Assembly (NCBI GenBank): GCA_943704415.1
Contig: CALSCO010002368.1
Coordinates: 31,560 to 95,559 of the forward strand
Reading direction: 5' to 3'
Length of the DNA stretch: 64,000 nucleotides
Source of the DNA: Parvularia atlantis
Taxonomy: Eukaryota > Opisthokonta > Rotosphaerida
Every line of letters starts with the position of its first letter. The first letter of the stretch is position 1. Positions 1 to 26,552 of the stretch are shown here, one piece after another. The notes beneath the pieces were generated by a model that was given only the letters and a program-made list of their open reading frames with translations, ran no database searches and was not told the DNA's origin. Both the position numbers and the translations under genes were made by a program.

Positions 1-2153
1 TCCACGCCGCCGCGCCGTCTGCGTCCGCGGCGACGGCCGACGCGGCGATGGGCAGCGCTGGTGCGCGGGGCCGGTCGCGCTGGCGGCGCTTCCGCAGCCG
101 CTCGGCGGTGCGTCACGTCATAGCGTACGCGCGCCACATGACGCGCGGCGCGGCACGCAGGCAGCGCTCAGCGGCAGCCTCGGCAACCATAACGTGCCGC
201 TGGGTCTCGTGGCCAACGTGATGCGCACGTTCGAGGGCGGCTCGCAGACGGCGTACGGCCTCGAGCTCGCGCTCAAGGACGGCCGCGTGCTGCGCCTTGG
301 CGGGTTCACGAGCGAGCGCGCATACAAGCAGCTGCTGCTCTCGGCCTTCCCCGAGACGCACCAGGGCGCGCTGTTTGCGTTCACCTTCTCGCCTGCGGCC
401 CCGCCCGCGTCCGAGCTCGACGGTTGGAGCGTGTATCAGGCGCTGCGCGAGTATGCGCGCATCGGAGTGCCGAGCTCGCTCTGGAGCATCACGACGCTCA
501 ACGACCGCTACGAGCTCTGCCCGACGTACCCGAGGTGCGCGCTCGCTCGCAGTGGCAGCTGCGAGCTGACGGGGCAGCGCAATCAGGCACCTCGTCGTGC
601 CGGCCGAGGCCACGGACGACCTCATCCTCGACGCGGCCAAGTTCCGCTCGCAGAGCCGCCTGCCGGTGCTCTGCTGGGTGCACCCGCACAGCGGCGGCGT
701 CGTGTGCCGCGCCGCTCAGCCGACGGCCGGCTTTGTGGGGCGGTCGAAGCCCGACGAAGAGCTCGTCGAGTGCGTTGACCTACCGCCCTGCACCTGCTGC
801 CGCTAACGCTGCCGCGCAGGCTGCTGTGGCGCAGCTGCGGCCGCCGGCGCGACTCGTCCGCGGTGCACCTGATCATTGACGCGCGCCCGCGCATCAACGC
901 CGAGGCGAACCGCGCGTCCGGCGGCGGGTATGAGCACGCGCCCAACTACACGCAGACCGAGATCGAGTTCCTCGGCGTGGGCACGTCTGCCACGCGCGTG
1001 CGTGCGGCGTGGCTCCTGACAGCGTACACAGACAACATTCACGTCATGCGCGACTCACACCGCAAGCTCGTCGCCGCGTGCTCGCAGGTTGCGGCGGCCG
1101 ACGAGGCATTCTGGGCCGAGCTCGAGGACACCGAGTGGCACAAGCACATGCGCACGCTGCTCAAGGCGGTCGTGCGTGCGGTGCGCGTCGTCGCGAGCGG
1201 GCGGGGCGTGCTTGTGCACTGCTCGGACGGTGCGTGGCTCGCGCCCGCGTCGCGCGGGCCGCTCCAACGCCGCGCCGCGCCGCAGGCTGGGACCGCACGC
1301 CGCAGATCACGTCGCTAGCCATGGTGCGCCCACCCGCGCCCGCGCTCCAGATGCTCACGCCCGCCGCAGCTGTGCATGGACCCGTTCTACCGCACGCGCA
1401 CGGTGCTGGCGGCCAGCCGCGCTTGAGCGCCTCGCACTGACGCGCGCGTGCAGGGCTTTGCCGTGCTGATCGAGAAGGAGTGGCTCTCGTTCGGCCACAA
1501 GTTCCACGACCGCGTTGGCCACGGCCGCTGGAACCCCGGCGACGTCGAGGTGCGTCAGCCTCCGCCCGTGCGCGTGCGTGTGCTCACCCGCCCGACGGTA
1601 GCGCTCGCCAATCTTCCTGCAGTTTCTCGACACGGTCTGGCAGGTGCGCGAGCCCGCGGCCGGATGCGGTGCAGGCCTCACCGCCGCGTTGCAGATCTTC
1701 AGCCAGTTTCCCGAGGCGTTCGAGTTCTCCGAGGCGTTCCTGCTCGCCGTGCTGGACGAGAGCCACGCCTGCCGCTACGGCACGTTCCTGTTCAACTGCG
1801 AGCGCGAGCGCGTCAACGAGGCCCTGGCGCAGCGCACGGTGTCGGTCTGGACGCCGCTGTGCGCCCGGGGCGCGACGCAGTACGTCAACTCGCTCTACCA
1901 GCCGATCAACGGGACGATCCTGCCGTCGACGTCGAGCCGGTACAGCGATCTCTGGCGCACGGTGCACCTGCGGCATCTCGTGAGCACGCGCAGCTTTGCC
2001 GTGCCCTCGGTCGAGCTGTACCCGCTGGTGGCGACCGCGATCGAGCAGCGGATCGACTCGTCCGAGGTTGATGCACTGGCAGCGGTCGACGCCGAGGCCG
2101 ATGCACTGGCAGTGCAGGCTGAGACCGACGCCGACGCCTCAGCGCCAAGCTAA
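1..2153 (+). CDS. Myotubularin-family phosphoinositide 3-phosphatase, 5' end outside the window
   Basis: Spliced exons give the end of a PH-GRAM domain, then the myotubularin phosphatase domain. Visible family blocks are [17 protein letters not shown], the [12 protein letters not shown] stretch, GGGYE and NIHVMRDS. The P-loop VHCSDGWDRT carries the catalytic Cys and Arg of the CX5R motif; it is split by an intron between the Gly and Trp codons. FLDTVWQ and [10 protein letters not shown] follow and the gene stops at 2151-2153. Clear introns are 108-160, 535-586 and 770-819; two or three more lie between 1240 and 1700. The family removes the 3-phosphate of PI3P or PI(3,5)P2 on endosomes. The intact CX5R suggests an active enzyme rather than one of the dead paralogues. 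The first exon (1-107) is low-complexity and the true start lies upstream. The gene converges on the CHHC-Tudor gene with 58 bp between stops. Confidence 0.9.
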
Positions 2154-2211
2154 GCATGTGATCTTACTATTGCGCCGCCGTGTGTGCGTCCGAACAACAA
2201 ACCGCTCACTC

Positions 2212-4738
2212 CTAAGCGAGGCCGTACTGCAGCTGGATCTGGAAGATCTCCGACTCAACAGACTGCTTTTGCGCGAGCCGCTGCAGCTCTATGTGCGTCA
2301 GTGCCTCGCCGCCGTGCGAACGGCGCTCGAGCTCGCGGATCTGGTCCCGCCGGCGCGTCAGCACGCTCAGACGCTCGAGCGTCTCGTCCGGTATCCCGCC
2401 GGGCCCGTGCAGCGTCGGCCGCGGCCGTGCCTCCGACGGTGCGGCGACGTGCGCCCACGACACGGGCCGTGCAGGCGCGGGCGCGGGCGCGGGCATCGGT
2501 ACGGGTGCGGGCGCAGCGTACGCGGCTGGCGCGGCGTGCAGGTGCGGCGGCGGGCGCGCAAACATCGCGGGCGCTCCTGCGGCCGGGCGACCGTTGGCGA
2601 CGAGGACGGGCGCGTAGTAGGCGCCGGGGGCAGCTGCGGCGGGCGTGTACGTCGTCCCGGCGCCGAGCGCCGCCTGCAGCCCAAGCATCGACGCAAACTG
2701 CTGCTGGTGTTGCTGCTGCTGCATGGGTGCTGGCGCGTGCGAGGCCGCGGGCCGAAAGGCCGACGGTGCTGGCCGCGGTGTGCTGTAGGCCGGAACGGGT
2801 GCAGGCGCCGCGTAGACCGGGGCAGCCGCCGGTGGCCGCGCCGCATAGGCTGGTGCGGCGGTCGCCGGCACCGTCTGCCACTGCGACGCCGGCGCGGCGG
2901 ATGCGGTCGCGGGCCGCAGGAACTGGTCCTCGCTCTCCTCTGTGTTGCCGTAGTCGAGGTACGTCACGACGTAGCGCCCGCTGCCGAGCACCTTGTCGAT
3001 GCGCGCGCGGTACCACTGGTTGTCCTCGGAGAATTGGCCCTCGCATACGTCGCCAGCCTTCCAGCGTGACAACGGCGCAGCAGCCGGTGCCGGCGCGGGT
3101 GCCGGCGCGGTCGTGCGCGGCCGCAGGAAACGCTCATCACGCTCCTCCGCGTTGCCGTAGTCGAGGTAGGTCACAAAGTAGCGTCCCCCGTCCAAGACCT
3201 TGTCGATGCGCGCGCGGTACCACCCGAGATCCTCCGAGAACCGGCCCTCGCACACGTCGCCCACCTGCCACCGCGACGCCGGCGCGGCGGACGCGGTCGC
3301 GGGCCGCAGGAACTGGTCCTCGCTCTCCTCTGTGTTGCCGTAGTCGAGGTACGTCACGACGTAGCGCCCGCTGCCGAGCACCTTGTCGATGCGCGCGCGG
3401 TACCACTGGTTGTCCTCGGAGAATTGGCCCTCGCATACGTCGCCAGCCTTCCAGCGTGACAACGGCGCAGCAGCCGGTGCGGGCGCCGGAGCAGGTGCGG
3501 GTGCGGCTGCTGGTGCGGGCGTAGACACCGCGGCTGAAGCGCCCGAGCCGAGCGGGCGCAGGAAGCGGTCCTCGCTCTGCTCAGCGTTGCCGTAGTTGAC
3601 GTATGTGACGATGTACGTGCCGTCCGGGTTAACGGCGTCAATTCGCGCGCGGTACCACTCGTTGTCCTCCGAAAACTGCCCCTCGCAGATGTCGCCCACG
3701 TGCCAGCGCGTGTGCAGCGGCGGCGAGACTGCGTGCGCGTGAGCGCGCCGCGCTTACACGAGGGCGCCGCACCAAACGCGCTATCGTCGTCGGCCTCGCT
3801 CTTCTTCTCCTTCTTTTTAAGGTGCTTGCGCTGGCTGGCAAAGCGCACGCGGCGTCAGCGTCCAGCGCGCACGCACGTGCGGCGCACGCACTTCTTCGTC
3901 AGCGCCGTCGACCCTTCAAGCTCCTCCCAGCCGGGCGGCAGCGCCGCGGCGTTGGCCGCGGGCGTAGCAGCCGGCGCCTTGCCGTTGGTTGCGGCCGGCG
4001 CGGCCGAGGCGGGCGCCGTGCCGGGCTTGCGGGGCGCGGCCGAGGCCTGGTCGATGCCGTCGGTGCTGTTGCGCGGCGAGACGTTGGACATGGCGAGGAT
4101 GTGGCCGGTCTTGGAGTCACACAGCACTGCGACGCGGCGTGAGCGGTGATGGCAGCGACGGCGGCGACGGCGGCGGCGCAAGGCGCAGCGCACCCAGCCG
4201 CGGGCCGTAGCCGTAGTCTATGATCACCTGCTCCTCCTTGCGGTCGGCCGGCTGGCCGCGCCGAGTTCAGCAGGGGCAGGGGGCGCGTCGCCGCCAACGC
4301 CACCTTGTCGGGGCAGTTGAGCACGTGCGTGGCAAATTCATCCCGCGGCAGCCAGTGTATCTCGTTGTACTTGCGGCGCGGTGAGCCGTCAGCGTCTGCG
4401 GTGTGGGCGAAGGGCGCGCGCGCACCGGGCAGCACTGGTACTTCTCCATGTTGGTGCGCTGTCGTCGCCGCCCGCGCGCGCTCAGCCCGCCACCGCCACG
4501 TCAGCGACCGCGCCGCACGCACCATGCGGCACTGGTAGATATGCCACTGCAGGCGCTCCTTGGGCATGTAGTGGTTCTTGTCGAACTAGCGAGGGCGCCA
4601 CGCGGCGCACAACGCGGCTGGTCACGCTTCGTCCGCGTCCGCACCCGCACGCACGGGGCAGAAGACCCAGTTGTCGGCCTCGTCCGCCGTGCGCGGCGCC
4701 GGGTGGTTGAACGTCTCGTCCTCAAAGCCCCCCGTCAT
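2212..4738 (-). CDS. Tandem CHHC zinc-finger (GTSF1-like) protein fused to four Tudor domains
   Basis: Joining exons 4738-4655, 4585-4523, 4458-4426 and the one starting at 4369 gives two fingers of identical spacing, CX5HX9HX3C, at about residues 27-47 and 59-79. Only 11 residues separate them, as in GTSF1/Asterix proteins; U11-48K and TRMT13 have a single finger. After a low-complexity linker come four Tudor domains of the type GDVCEGQFSEDNQWYRARI...YGNTEE, encoded at about 3700-2900. An Ala/Pro-rich stretch and a short C-terminal coiled coil follow, ending at 2212. GTSF1 proteins assist Piwi/Argonaute silencing and bind RNA; Tudor domains bind methylated Arg or Lys. The fusion therefore suggests an RNA-silencing or snRNP-assembly adaptor, which is inference. 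The second and fourth Tudor units are near-identical DNA copies. The start ATG at 4738 gives a 26-residue lead before the first finger. Confidence 0.82.
2911..3090. repeat. 180-bp direct repeat, copy 1 (Tudor unit)
   Basis: This 180-bp stretch is identical base for base to 3301-3480, 390 bp away; the similarity extends about 30 bp further upstream with a few changes. It encodes one Tudor domain of the CHHC-Tudor gene. The Tudor units flanking or between the copies are clearly diverged, so the identity points to recent duplication or gene conversion. Confidence 0.9.
3301..3480. repeat. 180-bp direct repeat, copy 2 (Tudor unit)
   Basis: Partner of the copy at 2911-3090, with no differences over 180 bp including silent codon positions. 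It encodes another Tudor domain of the same protein. Confidence 0.9.
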
Positions 4739-4882: not shown

Positions 4883-6258
4883 ATGGCGCACAACTCGTGG
4901 TCGACGTCGGTCTCGCAGAAGGCACGGCGCAGCGCGGCGGCAAGTGGTGGCACGGCGGCTCACATTGTGTGCACGCACACAGGGCGAGTACGTCCGCAAG
5001 GACTCGGTCTTCCGTGACTTTGTCCGCGCCGACGGCAGCACGCCCTTCGCGCCCGAGGCCGGCCGCTACCACCTCTACGTCTCGCTCGCGTGCCCCTGGG
5101 CGTGCCGCACGCTGGCAGTACGCGAGCTCAAGGTAGCCGGCTCCCCTCTTGCGCGTGCGGACGGTCGCCAACGCCGGACGCGACGCAGGGCCTGCAGGAC
5201 GCGATCAGCGTCACCGTTGTCGACTGGCTGCTCGAGGCGGGCGGCTGGAAGTTCACGGACCAAAAGGCAGGCTGCTCGCTCGACCCGATCTTTGGCGAGC
5301 AGTACCTGCGCGCGGTGCGCCGCGAGACGCCGTGGAAGGGCGCACACCGTGACACCGAGGCCGACCGTCGCGACAGATCTACACGCACGCCGACCCCAAC
5401 TACGCCGGCAACATCACCGTGCCCGTGCTGTTTGACCGCAAGCACATGACGATCGTCAACAACGAGAGCTCCGAGGCTCGCGCGCGTCCCGTCTGCCGCC
5501 CGCCGTCGCGGCTCACACCGGCCGCACGCAGATCATCCGCATGCTCAACTCGGAGTTCAATGCCATCGCCAAGAACCCGACGCTCGACCTGTACCCGGCA
5601 GCGCTGCGCGACAACATCGACGCGGTTAACGAGTGGGTCTACCCGTCGATCAACAACGGCGTCTACCGCTGCGGCTTTGCGCGCTCGCAGGAGGCCTACG
5701 ACGAAGCCTTCACGCAGCTCTTTGCGTCGCTCGACCGCGTCGAGGGCATCCTCGGGCGCCAGCGCTACCTCGCGGGCAACCAGCTGACCGAGGCCGACGT
5801 GCGCCTGTTCACGACGCTTATCCGCTTCGACGCGGTCTACGTCCTGGTGCGCCCCGCGCGCCTGCTGCTGCAAGCCGGTGCACTGAACGTGCCGGTGCGT
5901 CTGCAGCACTTCAAGTGCAACCAGCGCCGCATCCAGGACTACCCGAACATGCAGAACTACCTCAAGGAGCTGTACCAGATGGATGCGTTCCGCTGCACAG
6001 TGCGCCTCGCTCGCGCACGATCCGGCTCGCTGACCGGCTGGCCGCGCGATAACAGGTTGACTTTGAGCACATCAAGAACGTGCGTGCACGCGCGCACAGC
6101 GCCGGCCGCGGCTGACCCCCCACACGCCCGCGCCCGCGCCCCGCGCCCCGCAGCACTACATGCAGTCGCACAAGCACATCAACCCCGCGGGCATCGTCGC
6201 GCGCGGCCCGCTGCTCGACCTCGACTCGCCGCACGACCGCACAAAGTTCGCTTCGTGA
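4883..6258 (+). CDS. Glutathionyl-hydroquinone reductase (ECM4/YqjG-type, omega-like GST)
   Basis: The spliced product carries the family's order of blocks: GEYVRKDSVFRDFV, the catalytic SLACPWACRT (Cys nucleophile in CPWA), GWKFTD, YAGNITVPVLFDRK and NNESSEIIRMLNSEFN. The GST C-terminal helical domain follows, with YPAALRDNIDAVNEWVY, GGRQRYLAG-like sequence and TEADVRLFTTLIRFD. The C-terminus is DLDSPHDRTKFAS, with the stop at 6256-6258. These enzymes reduce glutathionyl-hydroquinones using glutathione, mostly in the cytosol. At least five introns are present (near 5134-5182, 5352-5380, 5480-5530, 5847-5900 and 5996-6062). The first exon is uncertain: the ATG at 4883 is the best visible start, but its junction to the GEYVRKD exon is not resolved. 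The gene diverges from the CHHC-Tudor gene. Confidence 0.85.
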
Positions 6259-6298
6259 CACGTCTGTTGTTCAGAGGTCGCGCCCGGAATAGCAAACT

Positions 6299-6306
6299 TG
6301 ACGTCA
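6299..6306. promoter_or_regulatory. Perfect CRE-like palindrome TGACGTCA upstream of the MADS-box gene
   Basis: The 8-bp palindrome lies 86 bp before the MADS-box start codon and 40 bp after the preceding stop, in the 134-bp gap that must hold this gene's promoter. It is the consensus site of bZIP factors of the CREB/ATF type. Function is inferred from position and match only. Confidence 0.4.
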
Positions 6307-6392
6307 TCGAAGTTATTTTCGTGCCGCGTCCTCGCTCGCTCGCGCCCGCCACGCCCGCCACCCGCCGCCCGCCCGCCGCGCACCCCGCCGTC

Positions 6393-8451
6393 ATGGGCCG
6401 CAAGAAAATCCACATCAGCTACATCCAAAACGACCGGCACCGCCAGGCGCGCGCGCGGCGCGGTTTCGCCGTGGCGCTCGTCTTGACGTTTGGCGTGGGT
6501 GACCGCGCAGGTCACGTTCACCAAGCGCAAGTTTGGCCTGCTCAAGAAGGCGTTCGAGCTGAGCGTGCTGTGCGACTGCGAGATCGCCGTCGTCATCTTC
6601 ACCGCCAGCAACAAGCTGTTCGAGTATGGCTCGTCCGACGTCAACAAGGTCATGCAGCGCTGGCAGAAGTACACTGACGCCCGCGAGACGCGCACCAACC
6701 GCGACGCCGACTACGTGCGTGGCCTTCGTCTGCGCCGCGGCCCTGTGCCGCGTGGCTGAGCACGCGCACGCGCCAGTTCATGTCGAGGAAGACGACCAAG
6801 GAGACGCGCTCCGACGCCGAGAGCGAGAGCGAGGACGAGGTGCGGCCGCGCGCGCCATCGGCCCTCTCGCTCACGGGCGCCGCGTCGCAGGCCCCGCCCA
6901 CGCTCACGTCGCCCAACACGGAGCAGCGCCTGCAAAAGATTAACAAGGCCTACGCCGAGACGGTCGGCAAGACGGCGATGGCGCGCACGGGCGGCAGTGT
7001 GCGTGCTGCGTTCGGCCCGCCCGTGCGCTGCCCTCACCGCCACCGTTGTGCCGTCAGCGCGCGCAGGCGCCCAAGCTGAACGTCAGCCTCGATGCGGCCT
7101 CGACCGCCGGCGCCGGCTCATCGAGGCGCTCGCCGGGCAAGGCCGCCGCTGCCGCCGCCGCAGCAGCAGCAGCCGCCGCAGCAGCAGCCGCAGAGGACTC
7201 GTCGCCCTCGCCCACGTCGGCCGGCATAACCACGCGCTCGTTCAACGCGGCCACGTCGCCGCCCGGCCGGACACGCGCGGGCTCGGCGGCCGACGCGCAG
7301 AGCGGCCGCACGGCGTCGAGCGGCAGCGCCAGCGGCTCCAACTCGAAAAAGCCGCCGCACCTGCGCGTGATGATCCCAGACGACGGCAAGCCGCCGGCGT
7401 CGACCGCCGCGCCGCCGCACATGCCCATGGCGATGCACATGGCCGGCGGTGCCTACTATGCCGCGCCCGGCCCCGGTGGCGCGATCATGGTCAAGGCTGA
7501 GCACATGGCGGGCATGATTGCCATGCAGCAGCGCGCCGCGGCTGGGATCCCCGACGGCCTCATCAGCGAGGCGGCCGGGGCAGAGGGTGCGTCAGCGCCT
7601 CACCGCGCGGCATTGCGTGGCGCTCACGGCCGCGCCGCAGCGATGATGGCCATGGCTATGGGCGGCAAGAGCGCCACTGAGCCCGGCGCGACGTCAGCCG
7701 CAACGGTGATGGGCAACATGCCGCTGTACGCGATGGTGCGTGCACCAGGCATAGCGTGCGCGCGCGAGTGAACTCACGACGCCGCCACGCAGAACGGCAG
7801 CAACGGGTACACGCCCATCGGCTTCGCGTACCCGAACGGGACCTTTGTCAACCTGCAGGGAGGCACGGTGCGCGTGTTGCTGCGCCTGCCTGCCGCTTGG
7901 CAATTGACCTTCGCAATGTGTGTGCGCAGCCATTGCGCCCCAACATCGCCTTCTTCTCGCCCACGACGCAGCAGTTCATGCAGTACGGCGACGTGAGCTT
8001 CCCGCCGCCGCAGGAGAACCACGTGCAGTCGCCGCTCTTCCTCATCCCAAACACGACCGGCACGCCCGTCGCGCCCACGAGCGCGTACTGGTGTGGCTGC
8101 ACATGGGCTGCGGCGCGCGTCGCTGACGTCGGACGGACCACGCCAGGCTGCCGCCCTCGCCAAAGCAGGGGCAGTTCCCGCAGAACACGACCGGCGAGGG
8201 ACAAGGCGACCCCGCCAACGGTGCGAGTGCACGCCCTGCTTGTCGTGCCGCTGACGATCGCCGCACACGCAGGCGCGCCAAGGCCGGGCGCCAGCGACTC
8301 GTCCGGCGACGCGAGCGGCAGCAAGTGCGTTTGTGCTGCTGCCTGTGCACCGCAGCAACTGACCTGCGTCACCGCTCGCAGACGCGGCGCGGGCGATGGC
8401 GGCGAGGCCGATGGCGATGCGATCAAGCGGGCGCGGCGTGACGAGACCTGA
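6393..8451 (+). CDS. MADS-box transcription factor, MEF2-type
   Basis: Exon 1 (6393-6446) encodes [18 protein letters not shown]. It splices, through a GC-AG intron (6447-6510), to [20 protein letters not shown] and [19 protein letters not shown]. This is a complete N-terminal MADS domain with the MEF2 start MGRKKI. The remainder is low-complexity: an acidic/serine segment, an Ala tract (about 7140-7195), Met- and Ala-rich stretches, and a C-terminus ending KRARRDET at 8451. Introns are visible near 6713-6778, 7000-7070, 7587-7640, 7737-7785 and several beyond. MADS domains bind CArG-like A/T-rich elements as dimers. Because CArG boxes are A/T-rich and this genome is about two-thirds GC, predicted targets should be few. 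No separate MEF2 domain was confidently recognised. Confidence 0.9.
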
Positions 8452-8544
8452 CGACTGCTTCTGCAACTGGTTATCTGCGCACGTTGTACCTTTGGCCGCG
8501 TCCTACTTCTTCAGCGAAAAGAAACACAAGAAAGCATGTCAGAG

Positions 8545-11500
8545 TCACAGGCTGATCAGCTTGGAGTGCAGCAGCGTCGCACACTCCTTTGCCACGCGCG
8601 CGAGCTTGACGGCCGCGTTGACCATCGCCTGGGCGCGTGCGATCGCTGTGTGAGCGCGCGCTGCGATGCGTGTGGTGGTGCGCGGCCGCACCTGCACAGT
8701 CTCCTGGTTGTTGACACGCGAGGCCGTATTGGCCGTCTGCACGAGCATCGTGATGGCGTCGGCGAGCTGCATCAGCGAAAAGTTGAGGTTCTGCTTGAGC
8801 GTGAAGTCCGTGGTCGACGTCACGACCGTGCTCAGGAACGTGCGGATCTGCGACACGATCGCGATGACCGACCCCGCGGCTGCACGCGCGCACACGGTGT
8901 GAGACGCCAGTTGGATCACGTGCGACGGTGCCCACGCACCCTCCTGGTACTGCGTGTTCATCGCGCCCTTGGCCACGGACGCGAGGTACTTGATCGACCC
9001 GGTCAGCGCCTCCATCAGCTCGTCGAGCGATTTCTGCCCGCGTGCGCACGTCAACACCCGTGCTCGCCAACGGCACACGCGCGCCTGCGCACCGTCCACG
9101 TCTCGTACATCGCGCGCATCGGGTCCTCAAAGCCAAACAGCTGCGCCGCGTTGGCCGTGATAAAGTCGACGAGGTCGTACTTGGCAATGAGCGCGTCCGA
9201 GGCAATCTGTCCGCGCATGCGCGCGCTTCGTCAGCACACAGACAGGAGCGCGCGCATGCGGCCACACGCACCTTCTCCAGCTGCACAATCAGGTGCACGC
9301 GCGGCGCCGCCGCCTCAATTGCCGTCGCCAGCGGCTTGGCCGAGATCAGCAGCGCCTTGAGCGCGGCCGACAGCGCCGACATGTACGTCGACAGCTTGGC
9401 CTTGAGCACGACCGACTCGTCCGCGGCCGCGGCGATCGTGAGGAGGTCGCGCACGGCCGTCGTCGCGTTCTTCATCCCGCCTACAAAGTCGTCCAGCCGG
9501 CCCTCGCGCGCCGTGTCCAGTAGCGAGCCGAAGACCGCGTCGATTTTGCCCGACAGCTCCTGCGTCGTCGCCTCGACGTCGCCCTTGGTCTTGAGCTTGC
9601 TTGCGTCGAACGACGCCATTGGTGCCGCGACCGGTGCCGGCGCCGGCGCCGGAGCAGGGGCGGGCACGGGTGCGACCGCGGCGGCGGGCGGCTTGCCGGC
9701 CACGGCGGGCGCGGGCGAGCTGTTGGCCTTGGCGGCCTGGCGGGCGGCGGCCGCGGCCGCGATGACCGGCGCGACCGGCGGCGGCGTGCTGCTCGGCACT
9801 TGCGGCAGGGACAGTGTGTCGATCAGGTTCGAGATTGGCCGGTGCGCCTTGTCGAGGCTCGGCGGCAAGATCGGCGGCGGCAGGTTGGGTGGCGGCAGGC
9901 TGACTGGCGGCGGCGGGCGGGCGGGCATGCCGGCCGGGAGGATCGGCGGCGGCAGCTTGGAGACGGGCGCGGGGACTGCAGCCGGAGCGCGTGCGGGTGC
10001 GCGTGTTGGTGCCGGTGCCGGTGCAGGTGCGGGTGCGGGCGCCGGGGCCGGCTCGGGCTTCTTGGCGGCGACGACGGCTGCCGGTGGCGCCTTGACGGCG
10101 ACCGGCGGCGGCGGCGAGGGCTTGGCCGCCGGCGGCTTGGCTGCCGTGGCGGGTGCGGGCGCGGGCGCGGCAGGCTTGGGCTCGTCGACGGGCGCCGAGG
10201 CGGACATGCTCTCGAGGGCGAACTCGAGAGCCTGACGCTCGAGGTCCATCTGGCGCTCGAGTTCGGCGAACGCGCGCTGCGTCTCAAGGTCCTCGTTGCG
10301 GTTCTGCTCCTGGGCCAGCTTGGCCTCGGCCTCCATCAGCTGCTTGCGCATCTCCATCTTCTTGCGCTCTTCCTCTTCGGCCGCGCGCTGCGCTTCCTGC
10401 TGGCGCTGGACCTTTTCGAGGCGCGCCTTCTCCTCGGCCATCTTGCGCTCCATCTCGGCGAGCTGCGGCGGCGCGGCAGTCAGCACAAGCGCACAGCCAG
10501 CGCGCGTTGCACACCTTGCGCTCCATCTCGGCCTTCTCGGTCGCGGCCTTGACCTCCTTCTCGCGCGCGGCCATGGCCTCCTTCTCCTTGCGGATGCGCT
10601 CGGCCTCGGCCGCCAGGGCCGCCTCAAGCTTGCGCTTCTCCTCGGCCTCGCGCTCGGCCTGCTCGCGCATGCGCTTCTGCTGCTCCTCCATCTCGCGCAT
10701 GCGCTCCTGCCGCAGCCGCTCCTCCTGCTCGCGCTTCTCCCGCTCCTCCCGCTCGAGCCGCTCTGCGCGCGCGCGCTCGGCCGCCAGCCGCTCCTCGAGC
10801 TCGCGCAGCTTGGCCTCCATCGCGCGCTTTTCCTCTGCCTCGCGCTGTGCGAGCTCCTGCTGCCGGCGCGCCTCGGCCTCGCGGCGCTGCTGGTCCTCCA
10901 TCTTGGCCAGGGCCGCGGCGGCCTCGGCGGCGGCCTTGCGCTCGGCCTCCTCGCGCTCTGCACGCTGGCGGGCCTCGATCGCGCGTGCCTCGGCCTCGAG
11001 CCGCTCGCGCTCTTTGCGTCGCTCCTCGGCCTCGCGCTGCATCTGCTCCGCGCGCCGCTTCTCCTGCTCGAGGCGTTCCTGCGTCTCGCGCAGCATCATC
11101 TCCAGACGCTTCTTCTCCTCCTCCTCGCGGCGTGCGCGCTCGCGTGCCTCAGCCTCGAGGTCTTGGATCGCCGCCGCAGCCGCCGCAGCCGCCTGCTGGA
11201 CGCTCGGCGGTGGGGCGACGATGTGCGCGCCGGCCGCACCGGGCGCGGGCGGCAGCGCCTCGATGGGCTTGGCGGGTGTCTTGGACGCCGCAGCCGCAGC
11301 CGCGCCGGGCGCTGTCGGTGCGGGCATGCGGCCCTTGAAGGCGAGCGTGGCCGGCTTGTCGCTCGCGGGCGCCGGGGCCGTGAGGTCGAGCACGGACGAC
11401 GCCGGCGACGACGTGCCGATGGTCGGCGAGGGCGCCGACGCCGCCGAGCTGAGCGACGCGTCCGAGCCCGAGCGGGTCGCGCGCGGCTGGCCCGGGTAGA

Positions 11501-22353: not shown

Positions 22354-23754
22354 ATGCCGTCGCTCGTCGGCCGCATCCAGGCGCTCGTCATGATCGCCGT
22401 CCAGCTGGCGCTGGGCGGCTTCCTGGCCGTGGCCGTGAGCGCGACGCTGCTGCTGCAGTTCGTCTCGGGCCCGGCGCGGTTCTGTAGCCGCAAGAACCGC
22501 GACCATCGTGCGCCCGCCGCGCCCGAGCCGCGTCGCGATCCCCTGCCTGATGCGCCCCGCGCCGCAGTCGCCAAGGTGCTGCAGGACCCGAAGCTTGGCA
22601 CCCACGGCTTTGTGACGTCGCAGGGCGTGCGTCTGCACTACGTCGAGCTGGGCGACCGCAGCAAGCCGCTGATGCTGTGCGCGCTGCCGTCTGGGACGCA
22701 CGTGAACGCACGTGACGCGCGCGTCGGCCCGCGCGCAGGTTCATCCACGGCTTCCCCGAGTTCTGGTACATGTGGCGCCGGCAGATGCAGGACTTTGCCG
22801 GCACGCACCATTGCGTCGCGTTCGACATGCGCGGCTACAACGACTCGGAGAAGCCGCCGGGCGTGCACAACTACGCGCGCGACGTGCTCGTGGAGGACGT
22901 GCGCCAGGTGATCGTCCAGCTCAAGCACTCACGCGCCACACTCGTCGCACACGACTGGGGGGGCATCGTCGCCTGCAACTTTGCCGCCGACCGCCCCGAC
23001 ATGGTCGAAAAGCTCATCCTCACCAACACGACCTACTCGCCGGCCTTTGCGCGCGTCCTCGCCACGCCGGGTGCGTCGGGCGCGCGCGGTGCCGCTGCCC
23101 TCGCCCTGCTGACATCGCGCTGCTGCCCGTGCGCGGCCCTTCAGCCCAGCTGAGCAAGGTGCGCGGCAGTCCGCGGCACGCGAAACGCGACACGCTGACG
23201 CGACGGCGCGCGCAGTCTTGGTACATCTTCATGTTCCAGCTGCCGAGGCTGCCGGAGCTCGCGCTCACCAACAGCGACGGCCGCGCGCTCTCGGGCATGT
23301 TCAAGAAGAGCCACTCGCGCGAGGACATCGAGCTGCTCAAGTTTGGTGCGCCGTCGCCGTCGCCGTCACCAGTCTCTGTACCGATTGCGCGCATCGCAGC
23401 CTTCCTCAAGCCCGGCGCGTGCACGAGCGCGCTCAACTTCTACCGCGCCCTGCTGCGCATCACGCCGAGCCGGCTGAGCGGCCCGGAGCCCGTGCGCAAG
23501 ATCACCGTGCCGACGCTCCTCGTCTGGGTGCGCGCGGCCGGCCCAGCCGCCCGCGCCCTTTCGCATCGCTCACGCGCAACAACGCCGCACCGCCGCAGGG
23601 CAAGAAGGACTTTGCGCTCGGCCTGCCCGTCGCCGAGAGCTTCCGCACGTTTTGCGACAATCTGCAGCTCGTGTACCAGCCGGAGGCGACGCACTGGGTC
23701 GTGGCGGAGCAACCCGAGGCGCTGACGCAGGAGATGCGCCGCTTCGTCAAGTGA
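22354..23754 (+). CDS. Membrane-anchored epoxide-hydrolase-like alpha/beta hydrolase
   Basis: The N-terminus MPSLVGRIQALVMIAVQLAL forms a signal-anchor helix, as in EPHX3/EPHX4. The spliced core reads LHYVELGDRSKPLMLFIHGF and continues PEFWYMW, with the oxyanion motif HGFPEFW. DMRGYNDSEKP follows, then the nucleophile elbow HDWGG, where Asp is the attacking residue. The C-terminal EATHWVVAEQPE supplies the catalytic His. A microexon of about 14 nt (near 23146-23159) joins the cap region. The stop is at 23754. The family hydrolyses lipid epoxides at the ER or plasma membrane; haloalkane-dehalogenase-like activity is an alternative. The introns have GTGCG donors and CTGAC branch motifs. Confidence 0.85.
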
Positions 23755-23853
23755 CATGTGCGTGCGTGCCAGTACGTAAGACAATGCGTGAGTGAGTGTG
23801 CGTGTGGGTGTGCGTGAGGTGCATGTGAAGTGAAGTGAGGTGAGGGTGGCCGG

Positions 23854-26552
23854 TCAAACGAGCTTGAGCGGCGCCGTGAGCGACTTCATGCGGCGGTGCG
23901 CGGTCGGGGCGGCCTCGGCTTCCTCGCTCACGCTTGCGAGCGGCGCGCCCGGCGCGGCCTCATGCGCCAGCTCGATCGGGATCACCGTCGTCGACGTGCG
24001 CCGGCGCAGCATCGCCACCGTGGCCGTCTTGCTGGGACCCGCGGCGACCTGGGCCATGACCTGGGGCTGCGTCGTCGTCGGCGCACCGGCGCTCGTGTTA
24101 TGCTCGTAGTGGTCGTGCGCCCAGTAGCAGTACGCGGCGCGACCGAGCGAGATGACGACGAGCACAGCGCAAAACGCCAGCAGCGTCGCGTTGAACTGCA
24201 CCGATGCGCGGCACGCCGCCACGAAGCCGTCAAAGACAGGGTCGACCGTGAGGACCACGCCCGTGAGCACTTGCGCCACGCGCGTCTCGTTGACCTGCAG
24301 CAGCGTTGGCGAGACGCGCGGCAGGCGCACGGTGAGCAGCGGCAGGGTCAGGTTTTGGATGCGTCCGAGCGGCAGCTTGTCCAGGCCGAGCAGGCAGCGC
24401 ACGAGGTCTTCAGCCGGGTTGAGGATGATCGGGTCGATGTGCTCAGTCACGACGCGCAGCAGGTTGCGGATCTCGCTCTCGATAAAGTCCGTCGTGGCCT
24501 CGACGCTGTCCAGGAACGCGGCCGACTCGCCCAGCTTGCTGTTGATCGACGTCTCGAGCCCGGCCAGCGCCGCGTTGGCGTCGCGCACGTACGCGCCCAC
24601 GCTCGCGTTCACGCGCGCGTCGTAGTCGAGCGCGACCTGGCGCGACCACGCCGCCGTGGCCTCGACTGCGCTCTGGCGGTAGTGCGCCCGCGCCTGCTCG
24701 CCGCCGACGATCATGAGGCTGAACACGACCACACCGAGCACGGCGACCAGCAGGCAGTACATGAAAGGCGCGTGCCTGGGCATGCGTCTGCTCAGCGGTA
24801 TAACCGCAGCAGCGGGTGCGCGCGGGACGCACCAGACGTGCTCGCGAAACACGGTCACGGCGCGCCGCAGCCGCAGACTTGGCGTGACGCGCTGCACCAC
24901 CCAGCCGCCGGCCGCCTCGGTCCACCACGCCGACCAGCGCGCGCGCCACGTCGCTGCGTCGGCGCTGCCGCCGTCGCCCGACCGCGCGCCGACCGCGGCC
25001 TGCCAGCGGCGCTCCTCGTCCACGGCAAAGTACGCGTCCCAAGCAACCTGTGCCGCGACGGCCAGCGCCACGAGTGCGATAGCAGCGTAGACGCCCACAA
25101 CGAGCGCGTCGACCGCGCGGTCGACCGGGGCGTAGTCGATCGAGGCGCAGAACGTGATGTTGGCCGGCGCGGGCGTCGGCAGCGTGTCGTCGCCGATGTA
25201 GTACTGCGAGGCGGGTGAGGCAGCGCGAAGGGGCGGCAGCAGCGGCGCACCTGCTTGCGGTTCGCGTTGGCGCGCAGCAGGTCCTGGTAGACGCTCGTCT
25301 CGAGCAGACCCGACACGACGTATGTGTACAGCAGGTTGCTCACGCTGCAAGGCGCGCGCAGCGCGTCAGCCGGGGCACGACGGTGCAGCCCGCGACGCAC
25401 AAGCTCGAGGGCGACTCGACCACGATGATCGACGGCGTCGGGATGACGACCGTCGGGACGGGCGGGAAGGCGGGCATGGCCGGAATGGTCGGGATGGTGC
25501 CGCCGAAGAAGCCCACGAACGCGTTAAGGCCGCTCAGAAACGCGTTAAGGTCGTTCTGCGACTGCTGCAGCTGGCTCTGGAGCGTGCCCTGGACCTGGCG
25601 CAGGCTCTGGGTGAACGACGAGAGCTGCGCGTTGGCGACCTGCTGGCCCTTCTGCGTGGCCAAGTTAACGGCCGACGAGACGACGGTCGTGCCCGCGTCG
25701 GTGTAGCACAGCCAGCGGCGCTGTGTGTGAGCCGCGGTGAGCGGCAAGGTGGGCACAACGTCGCGGCGCAGCCGCACCAGGCGGAACTGCAGCAGCGCCT
25801 TGAGCAGGTCGACGAGCAGCTCGCTGCCCTGGACGGCGGCGGCAAAGCCGGCGTCGACCGAGCGGTTGACGACGCCGGCGATGGCCTCGTTGACGCCGCG
25901 CGCTGCAAAGTACCTGTGCGCCGCGCGCGCGCGCGGTGAGACCCTCCACGAGACGTGTTGCTCACGCGGCCGACGCACGGCACGGTCGCAGTCACGTTCG
26001 CCGCCGTCTGCACGCCGACGCACGCCGCGCCGACGATCTCTTTGACGTGCTCGGCCTCGCGGCGGACCTTTCCCGCGCACGGTGCGCGTCAGCGAGCCGC
26101 AGCGTGCCATCGCACTGGCAGCGCACCGTCGCCGCGATCTGCGCCAAGCCGAGGATGTGCAGCAGCAGCAGGAAGACGACGATCGTGAACGGCGTGCGCG
26201 CGAGCCGCGCGACGAAGCCGGCCTCGATGCGCGCGTCGCGCGGCAGCGTCGCCTCTGCGCCACCCGGAGCCGCGGCCCGCACGGGCACGTCGTACGCCGG
26301 CGGCGGCGTCACATCGCGCTCGGCGGCGCGTCGCGGGCGGGTTGCGGTCGCGGTCGCAGGCGCAGCGGGCGGCGTGGGCGTCGCGCCGGCCGTGTACAGC
26401 GGCGGCGGGGTCTCGTCGCGCCGGCCGGGCGCGAGCATCGGGTTCTTGCCACTGGGACCCGCGGTGCCGCGCGGGCTGTGCAGGTTGAGCTTGCCGAAGA
26501 GGTCGGGCACAAAGGAAGCGCTGCTGCTGTTGCTGTTGCTGCCGGCGGGCAT
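23854..26552 (-). CDS. Four-TM protein with two large ectodomain loops, PRM1-like layout
   Basis: From MPAGSN at 26552 there is a Pro/Ala-rich cytosolic N-terminus of about 125 residues. TM1 (FTIVVFLLLLHILGLAQIA) leads into a long extracellular loop with several cysteines and heptad-like stretches (VQGTLQSQLQQSQNDLNAFL, then VGFFGGTIPTIPAMPAF). TM2 (VVGVYAAIALVALAVAAQV), a charged cytosolic loop, and TM3 (YCLLVAVLGVVVFSLMIVG) follow. A second ectodomain of about 240 residues has N-glycosylation sites (NLT, NET, NAT). TM4 (LLAFCAVLVVISLG) precedes a cytosolic tail ending APLKLV. The layout matches fungal PRM1, which acts in gamete membrane fusion; prominin and tweety proteins have five TMs. 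Sequence similarity is too weak by eye to be certain. Several introns interrupt the first loop. Confidence 0.55.

Follow-up and report, generated by a model that had tools for sequence, protein, structure and literature searches.

A predicted protein joining tandem GTSF1-like CHHC fingers to four Tudor domains, and its possible role as a Piwi-pathway cofactor

The minus strand of the 64,000-nucleotide stretch of contig CALSCO010002368.1 analysed here (the window) encodes, from position 4738 to position 2212, a predicted protein in which two tandem CHHC fingers resembling those of GTSF1 are followed by four Tudor domains. The eight exons of this gene, referred to below as the finger-Tudor gene, join into one open frame of 705 amino acids. 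In the product, the tandem CHHC fingers lead through a Lys-rich linker to the Tudor domains, and a Pro/Ala/Gln-rich tail follows. On balance, we favour the reading that the protein is a single-chain Piwi-pathway cofactor, in which the Tudor domains would dock on methylated Piwi and the fingers would act as GTSF1. We lean towards such docking because fingers and Tudor domains occur in one chain beside an RG-tailed Piwi and PRMT5 in the same genome.

The finger-Tudor gene and its product

Exon 1 (4655-4738) contains the start codon, the N-terminus and the first CP of finger 1, and exon 2 (4523-4585) encodes the remainder of that finger. Exon 3 (4426-4458) covers the linker that separates the fingers together with the CP of finger 2, and exon 4 (4304-4369) the remainder of finger 2. 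These are followed by a linker containing DYGYGPRL (exon 5, 4194-4251), a low-complexity linker ending GWEELEGSTALTK (exon 6, 3892-4126), a Lys-rich stretch (exon 7, 3773-3834) and the long exon 8 (2212-3728), which carries the four Tudor domains, the Pro/Ala/Gln-rich tail and the stop codon at 2212-2214. All exons lie on the minus strand. A first-pass annotation had proposed that tandem CHHC fingers and four Tudor domains belong to one protein, and this was confirmed: the spliced frame is single and open, with no stop codon before 2212-2214.

All seven introns are GT-AG introns of 44-69 nt when the preferred donor of intron 7 is used. For this intron, the donor at 3772 (44 nt, GTGCG) was chosen rather than the one at 3757 (29 nt, GTAAG), which would lengthen exon 7 to 3758; both keep the frame. 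Intron 4 has further in-frame acceptors a few codons downstream of the chosen one, and exon 5 may accordingly start at another of them. At the chosen sites, the donors were GTGCG in six of the seven introns and GTGGC in the seventh, and the acceptors were CAG (five), TAG (one) and AAG (one). Codon usage was scored with a log-odds model trained on the PIWI gene of the same genome, located on another contig. The claimed frame scored higher than the other five frames in all eight exons. Scores of exons 1-7 in this frame were positive, from 3.0 to 16.6, and the score of exon 8 was -27, which is below background, while its other frames scored from -191 to -565. As a comparison, the best of the three forward frames in each of the seven introns scored from -13.3 to +2.3.

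The fingers are located at residues 27-47 and 59-79, and the identical CX5HX9HX3C spacing and the 11 residues between them were as first described. When models of the zf-U11-48K and Tudor families were run on the spliced protein, as the first-pass annotation had suggested, both families were found above cut-off. Each finger alone exceeded the Pfam zf-U11-48K cut-off of 21.1 bits, with 35.4 and 30.2 bits, respectively. An unspliced six-frame search also matched them with 25.3 and 20.7 bits, the second being above cut-off only jointly with its neighbour. Among solved structures, the finger pair aligned co-linearly to both fingers of mouse GTSF1 (PDB 6x46; E 7.7e-11). Finger 2 alone aligned to finger 2 of GTSF1 with 33.9 bits, versus 17.6 bits for U11-48K. 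Chance matching was considered for the fingers and was rejected by the co-linear alignment to GTSF1 and by the score of each finger alone. A phase-0 intron is positioned immediately after the CP in each of the two fingers, and this shared position suggests that they originated by duplication. The gene was the only tandem CHHC gene detected in the genome, and the sole other CHHC gene found was TRM13. A search of the first 219 residues against NCBIfam returned no match, and the first 121 residues had no relative among viral contigs and bacterial and archaeal genomes, a result that says little about other protists.

The known GTSF1/Asterix proteins (PDB 6x46 and 9nhb) likewise have two tandem N-terminal CHHC fingers, and each finger of the present protein aligns to its counterpart in 6x46. 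GTSF1 homologues are described as small proteins (<20 kDa, about 19 kDa) with two fingers, a probably unstructured C-terminus and PIWI-binding aromatic residues, with orthologues in some protozoans (PMC9539491). In contrast, the protein described here has 705 residues and a Tudor array.

The Tudor family model PF00567 matched the spliced protein with 146 bits over four stretches, and the SMN_Tudor model also passed with 101 bits. Tudor 1 (3529-3711), Tudor 2 (3277-3459), Tudor 3 (3094-3276) and Tudor 4 (2887-3069) begin at residues 208, 292, 353 and 422, respectively. The 61 residues of Tudor 2 recur unchanged in Tudor 4, and 188 identical bases are shared between the two (window 2887-3480), so the number of modules may be recent or affected by the assembly. 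The shared bases are compatible with a recent duplication, gene conversion or an effect of the assembly. The relatives of the modules among solved structures were Drosophila Tudor, Tudor-SN, TDRD3, SPF30 and SMN. The modules resemble the Tudor domains of TDRD3, SPF30 and SMN in sequence and in cage residues; SMN, however, is a separate gene here, and we know of no CHHC fingers in TDRD3, SPF30 or SMN. An extended (TDRD-type) Tudor consists of a Tudor core within an SN-like fold of about 180 residues. This form was not found in the array, in which successive repeats begin 61-84 residues from one another and are joined by Pro/Ala linkers. The cage of TDRD3 is formed by Y566, Y573, F591 and Y594, together with N596 (PMC3281842). 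In the alignment, these positions hold F, Y, Y, Y and N in four of four Tudor domains, and as aligned, all four modules fit a methylarginine-reader cage composed of an aromatic cage and Asn.

At least 15 further Tudor matches were obtained on six other contigs in a genome-wide search, including seven on C79 and three on C285; the count is a lower bound, since the Tudor domain of SMN on C36 was absent from the list. One of the C285 Tudor domains differs from Tudor 2 at four of 52 positions (counted by eye), and such closeness between contigs indicates a module family shared between genes of this genome. On C79 (contig 1083-3326, plus strand), seven Tudor domains are encoded in a single open frame. 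C466 carries Tudor modules whose sequences are likewise close to those of the finger-Tudor gene, and an RRM exon lies in their vicinity in the same orientation. The best match of the Tudor domain on C567 was TDRD3, followed by SPF30; we take this gene to be SPF30 and the Tudor gene on C445 to be SND1.

Piwi-pathway genes in the same genome

The assembly comprises 16.25 Mb in 616 contigs, and the window has a G+C content of about 70%. In EF1A (12 loci examined among 31 matches) there is an insertion of a type known in opisthokonts, at what we take to be the exact site of that insertion. A 12-residue EF1A insertion is described for opisthokonts (PMC3938643). The opisthokont affinity of the organism is read from this one character, and genome size and composition suggest that it is not an animal.

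The check for Piwi or Argonaute proposed in the first-pass annotation was carried out, and one Argonaute was detected in the genome. Its gene, on C544 (contig 5571-9545, plus strand), has an open 22-exon frame of 817 amino acids with Piwi and PAZ domains. The bit scores were 714 for the best solved Piwi (presumably that of a sponge), 242 for HrAgo1 and 139 for argonaute-2 (presumably human), and by sequence the protein is assigned to the PIWI clade. It has D, D and H motifs at the positions of what we take to be the catalytic residues, and GRGRG repeats are present within residues 10-24 of its N-terminus. PRMT5 gave three matches on C282, the best with 56 bits. The splice sites of the PIWI gene (donors GTGCG in 17 of 21 introns, acceptors CAG in 21 of 21) resemble those of the finger-Tudor gene; this tally is partly circular, and the likeness is only partly independent, because the script that picked the PIWI sites rewards GTGCG donors and pyrimidine-AG acceptors. 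Independent support for the PIWI joins, that of the first exon excepted, comes from homology that spans almost the full protein. The genome also contains one cellular-type RNA-dependent RNA polymerase (RdRP) match (E 2.7e-101; C459, contig 22355-24070, plus strand), which has one TGA inside it, as well as two RNase III loci. Reverse transcriptase matches were few for a genome keeping both Piwi and RdRP.

According to the reading that we favour, PRMT5 would methylate arginines of the RG repeats at the Piwi N-terminus, and the four Tudor domains would bind these methylated arginines and keep the protein on Piwi. The N-terminal GTSF1-type fingers would contact either structured RNA or the complex of Piwi with its target, and would stimulate Piwi activity. 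Docking by the Tudor domains may in this way replace the tryptophan tail by which animal GTSF1 binds PIWI. We infer the methylation, the binding and the RNA contact, as well as the stimulation of slicing and the silencing of transposons. Animal GTSF1 has been reported to speed target cleavage by PIWI and to require both RNA binding and PIWI binding for this (PMC9385479), and a ciliate Gtsf1 has been reported to associate with a Piwi (PMC11724296).

Several findings weigh against the cofactor reading. Regarding the fingers, the earlier designation as GTSF1-type holds for the co-linear pair and for finger 2, whereas finger 1 alone was nearly tied, with 32.9 bits for GTSF1 versus 32.1 bits for U11-48K. 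Among the RNA-contact residues of mouse GTSF1 (R26, R29, K36 and K39), only R29 is kept in the alignment; additional basic residues lie near the non-conserved contact positions of finger 1. The PIWI-binding tryptophan motif that follows the fingers in GTSF1 was not recognisable, and a single W, at residue 168, is present between residue 80 and Tudor 1. The Tudor domains are compact, like those of SMN, TDRD3 and SPF30 as well as the Drosophila Tudor cores, and the other Tudor genes of the genome could serve Piwi. The RG-bearing first PIWI exon is attached via an assumed intron of 252 nt, and without removal of this intron the frame is likewise open. Finally, the reverse transcriptase matches listed for the 16 Mb genome numbered only three, all weak and two with internal stops, which leaves such a pathway with few evident targets. 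Two of these three loci were inspected by eye. The original assignment to the Piwi pathway is thus supported in part, by the GTSF1-type pair, the RG-repeat PIWI and PRMT5, with the tryptophan tail, the RNA contacts and the Tudor form on the other side.

Alternative roles of the finger-Tudor protein

The strongest rival, which was absent from the first-pass annotation and which we regard as unlikely, is that the protein is a scaffold of an RdRP complex. In C. elegans, GTSF-1 acts together with ERI-5, which is a Tudor protein, and with an RdRP (PMC6468775), so that a GTSF1 protein and a Tudor protein work there in one small-RNA complex; the fused protein would do alone what these two polypeptides do together. 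The RdRP match in the genome is consistent with this role, and C. elegans GTSF-1 is likewise described as lacking the basic RNA-contact residues (PMC9539491), three of the four of which are missing here. However, studies of flies, mice, silkworm and a ciliate report a Piwi as the partner of GTSF1, this genome clearly encodes a PIWI, and the two RNase III loci are at most candidates for Dicer.

A spliceosomal or snRNP-assembly factor, in which U11-48K-like fingers would bind snRNA or the 5' splice site and SMN-like Tudor domains would bind methylated Sm tails, had been named as the main alternative. It is weakened by the present results, now ranks behind the RdRP scaffold and appears improbable to us. 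In its favour are the near tie of finger 1, whose likeness to the CHHC finger of U11-48K was noted above, the passing of the SMN_Tudor model and the existence of SMN and Gemin2 in the genome. The genome check for SMN and U12 snRNA that had been proposed was run. SMN, with a Gemin2-binding segment and a Tudor domain, was found as a separate gene on C36, Gemin2 likewise has a gene of its own, and the finger-Tudor protein gave no match to a Gemin2-binding segment or YG box even with E values up to 1 allowed. A single search detected no U12 snRNA in this assembly, whose completeness is unknown; U2, the positive control, was recovered with 117 bits. The second finger is GTSF1-like. A separate U11-48K gene was not found in the six-frame genome search, from which a gene with an intron-split finger could have escaped. 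Three identities of the protein itself were rejected: SMN, on the separate gene and the missing Gemin2-binding or YG-box match; TRM13, which combines a methyltransferase domain with CCCH and CHHC fingers, is a separate gene on C203 and has no counterpart of its methyltransferase domain among the domain matches of the finger-Tudor protein; and U11-48K, a minor-spliceosome protein that has a single CHHC finger rather than two and for which U12 was not found while U2 was.

We give still less credence to a methylarginine reader of general function that carries an RNA-binding head and acts, for instance, in tRNA or mRNA granules, with no connection to small RNAs. Such a role would suit the related Tudor modules in several genes of this genome, among them the one with the RRM exon, and CHHC fingers of other proteins are reported to bind structured RNA (PMC9539491); the co-linear GTSF1 match and the presence of Piwi argue against it.

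A false join of two adjacent genes, a finger gene and a Tudor gene starting in exon 6, is very improbable: an unspliced frame of 228 amino acids extends from exon 2 across exon 4 as far as 3899, exon 6 contains an in-frame ATG, and the single mRNA predicted to span finger and Tudor exons is deduced from the DNA alone, but exons 5-7, which bridge the two halves, show coding-type codon usage in the sole frame linking them, every splice join keeps the frame, and the gene is packed tightly between two neighbours. These neighbours are a myotubularin gene on the opposite strand, with its stop at 2153, and, on the other flank, a gene with a GST C-terminal domain that is transcribed away from the finger-Tudor gene. 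Elsewhere in the window, an exon of an SRF-type (MADS-box) transcription factor, presumably MEF2-like, was observed at 6487-6756 on the plus strand. ARAGORN, and Rfam at the gathering threshold, found nothing within the window.

Implications for GTSF1, Tudor and Piwi partnerships

A literature search, mainly of open-access sources, retrieved no described single chain with GTSF1-type fingers and Tudor domains, in agreement with the earlier statement that no such layout is known; deposited but undescribed relatives may exist. Physical links between the two protein types have been reported in the form of separate chains. Silkworm Gtsf1L directly binds a Tudor domain of Vreteno (PMC10711660); there, two polypeptides and an extended Tudor are involved, whereas one chain with compact Tudor domains is predicted here. 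The pair in C. elegans differs in the same way, being two polypeptides with an RdRP partner.

Piwi genes were recently reported in two ichthyosporeans, and the main text of that report contains no occurrence of GTSF or CHHC (PMC12147562). Reports of Piwi in opisthokonts other than animals are few. We put at close to even the chance that GTSF1 has been built covalently into a multi-Tudor scaffold in this opisthokont, probably a non-animal one, so that one protein would both grip methylated Piwi and switch on slicing. The layout bears on how GTSF1 is brought to animal Piwi proteins and on the age of this partnership. The fusion of fingers to a putative methylarginine reader beside an animal-type RG-repeat Piwi points to a direct functional link, which can be tested in a single gene. 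If true, the covalent fusion would predict a direct GTSF1-Tudor-Piwi unit and, adding to the ichthyosporean report (PMC12147562), would mean that a functioning Piwi effector module exists beyond the animals.
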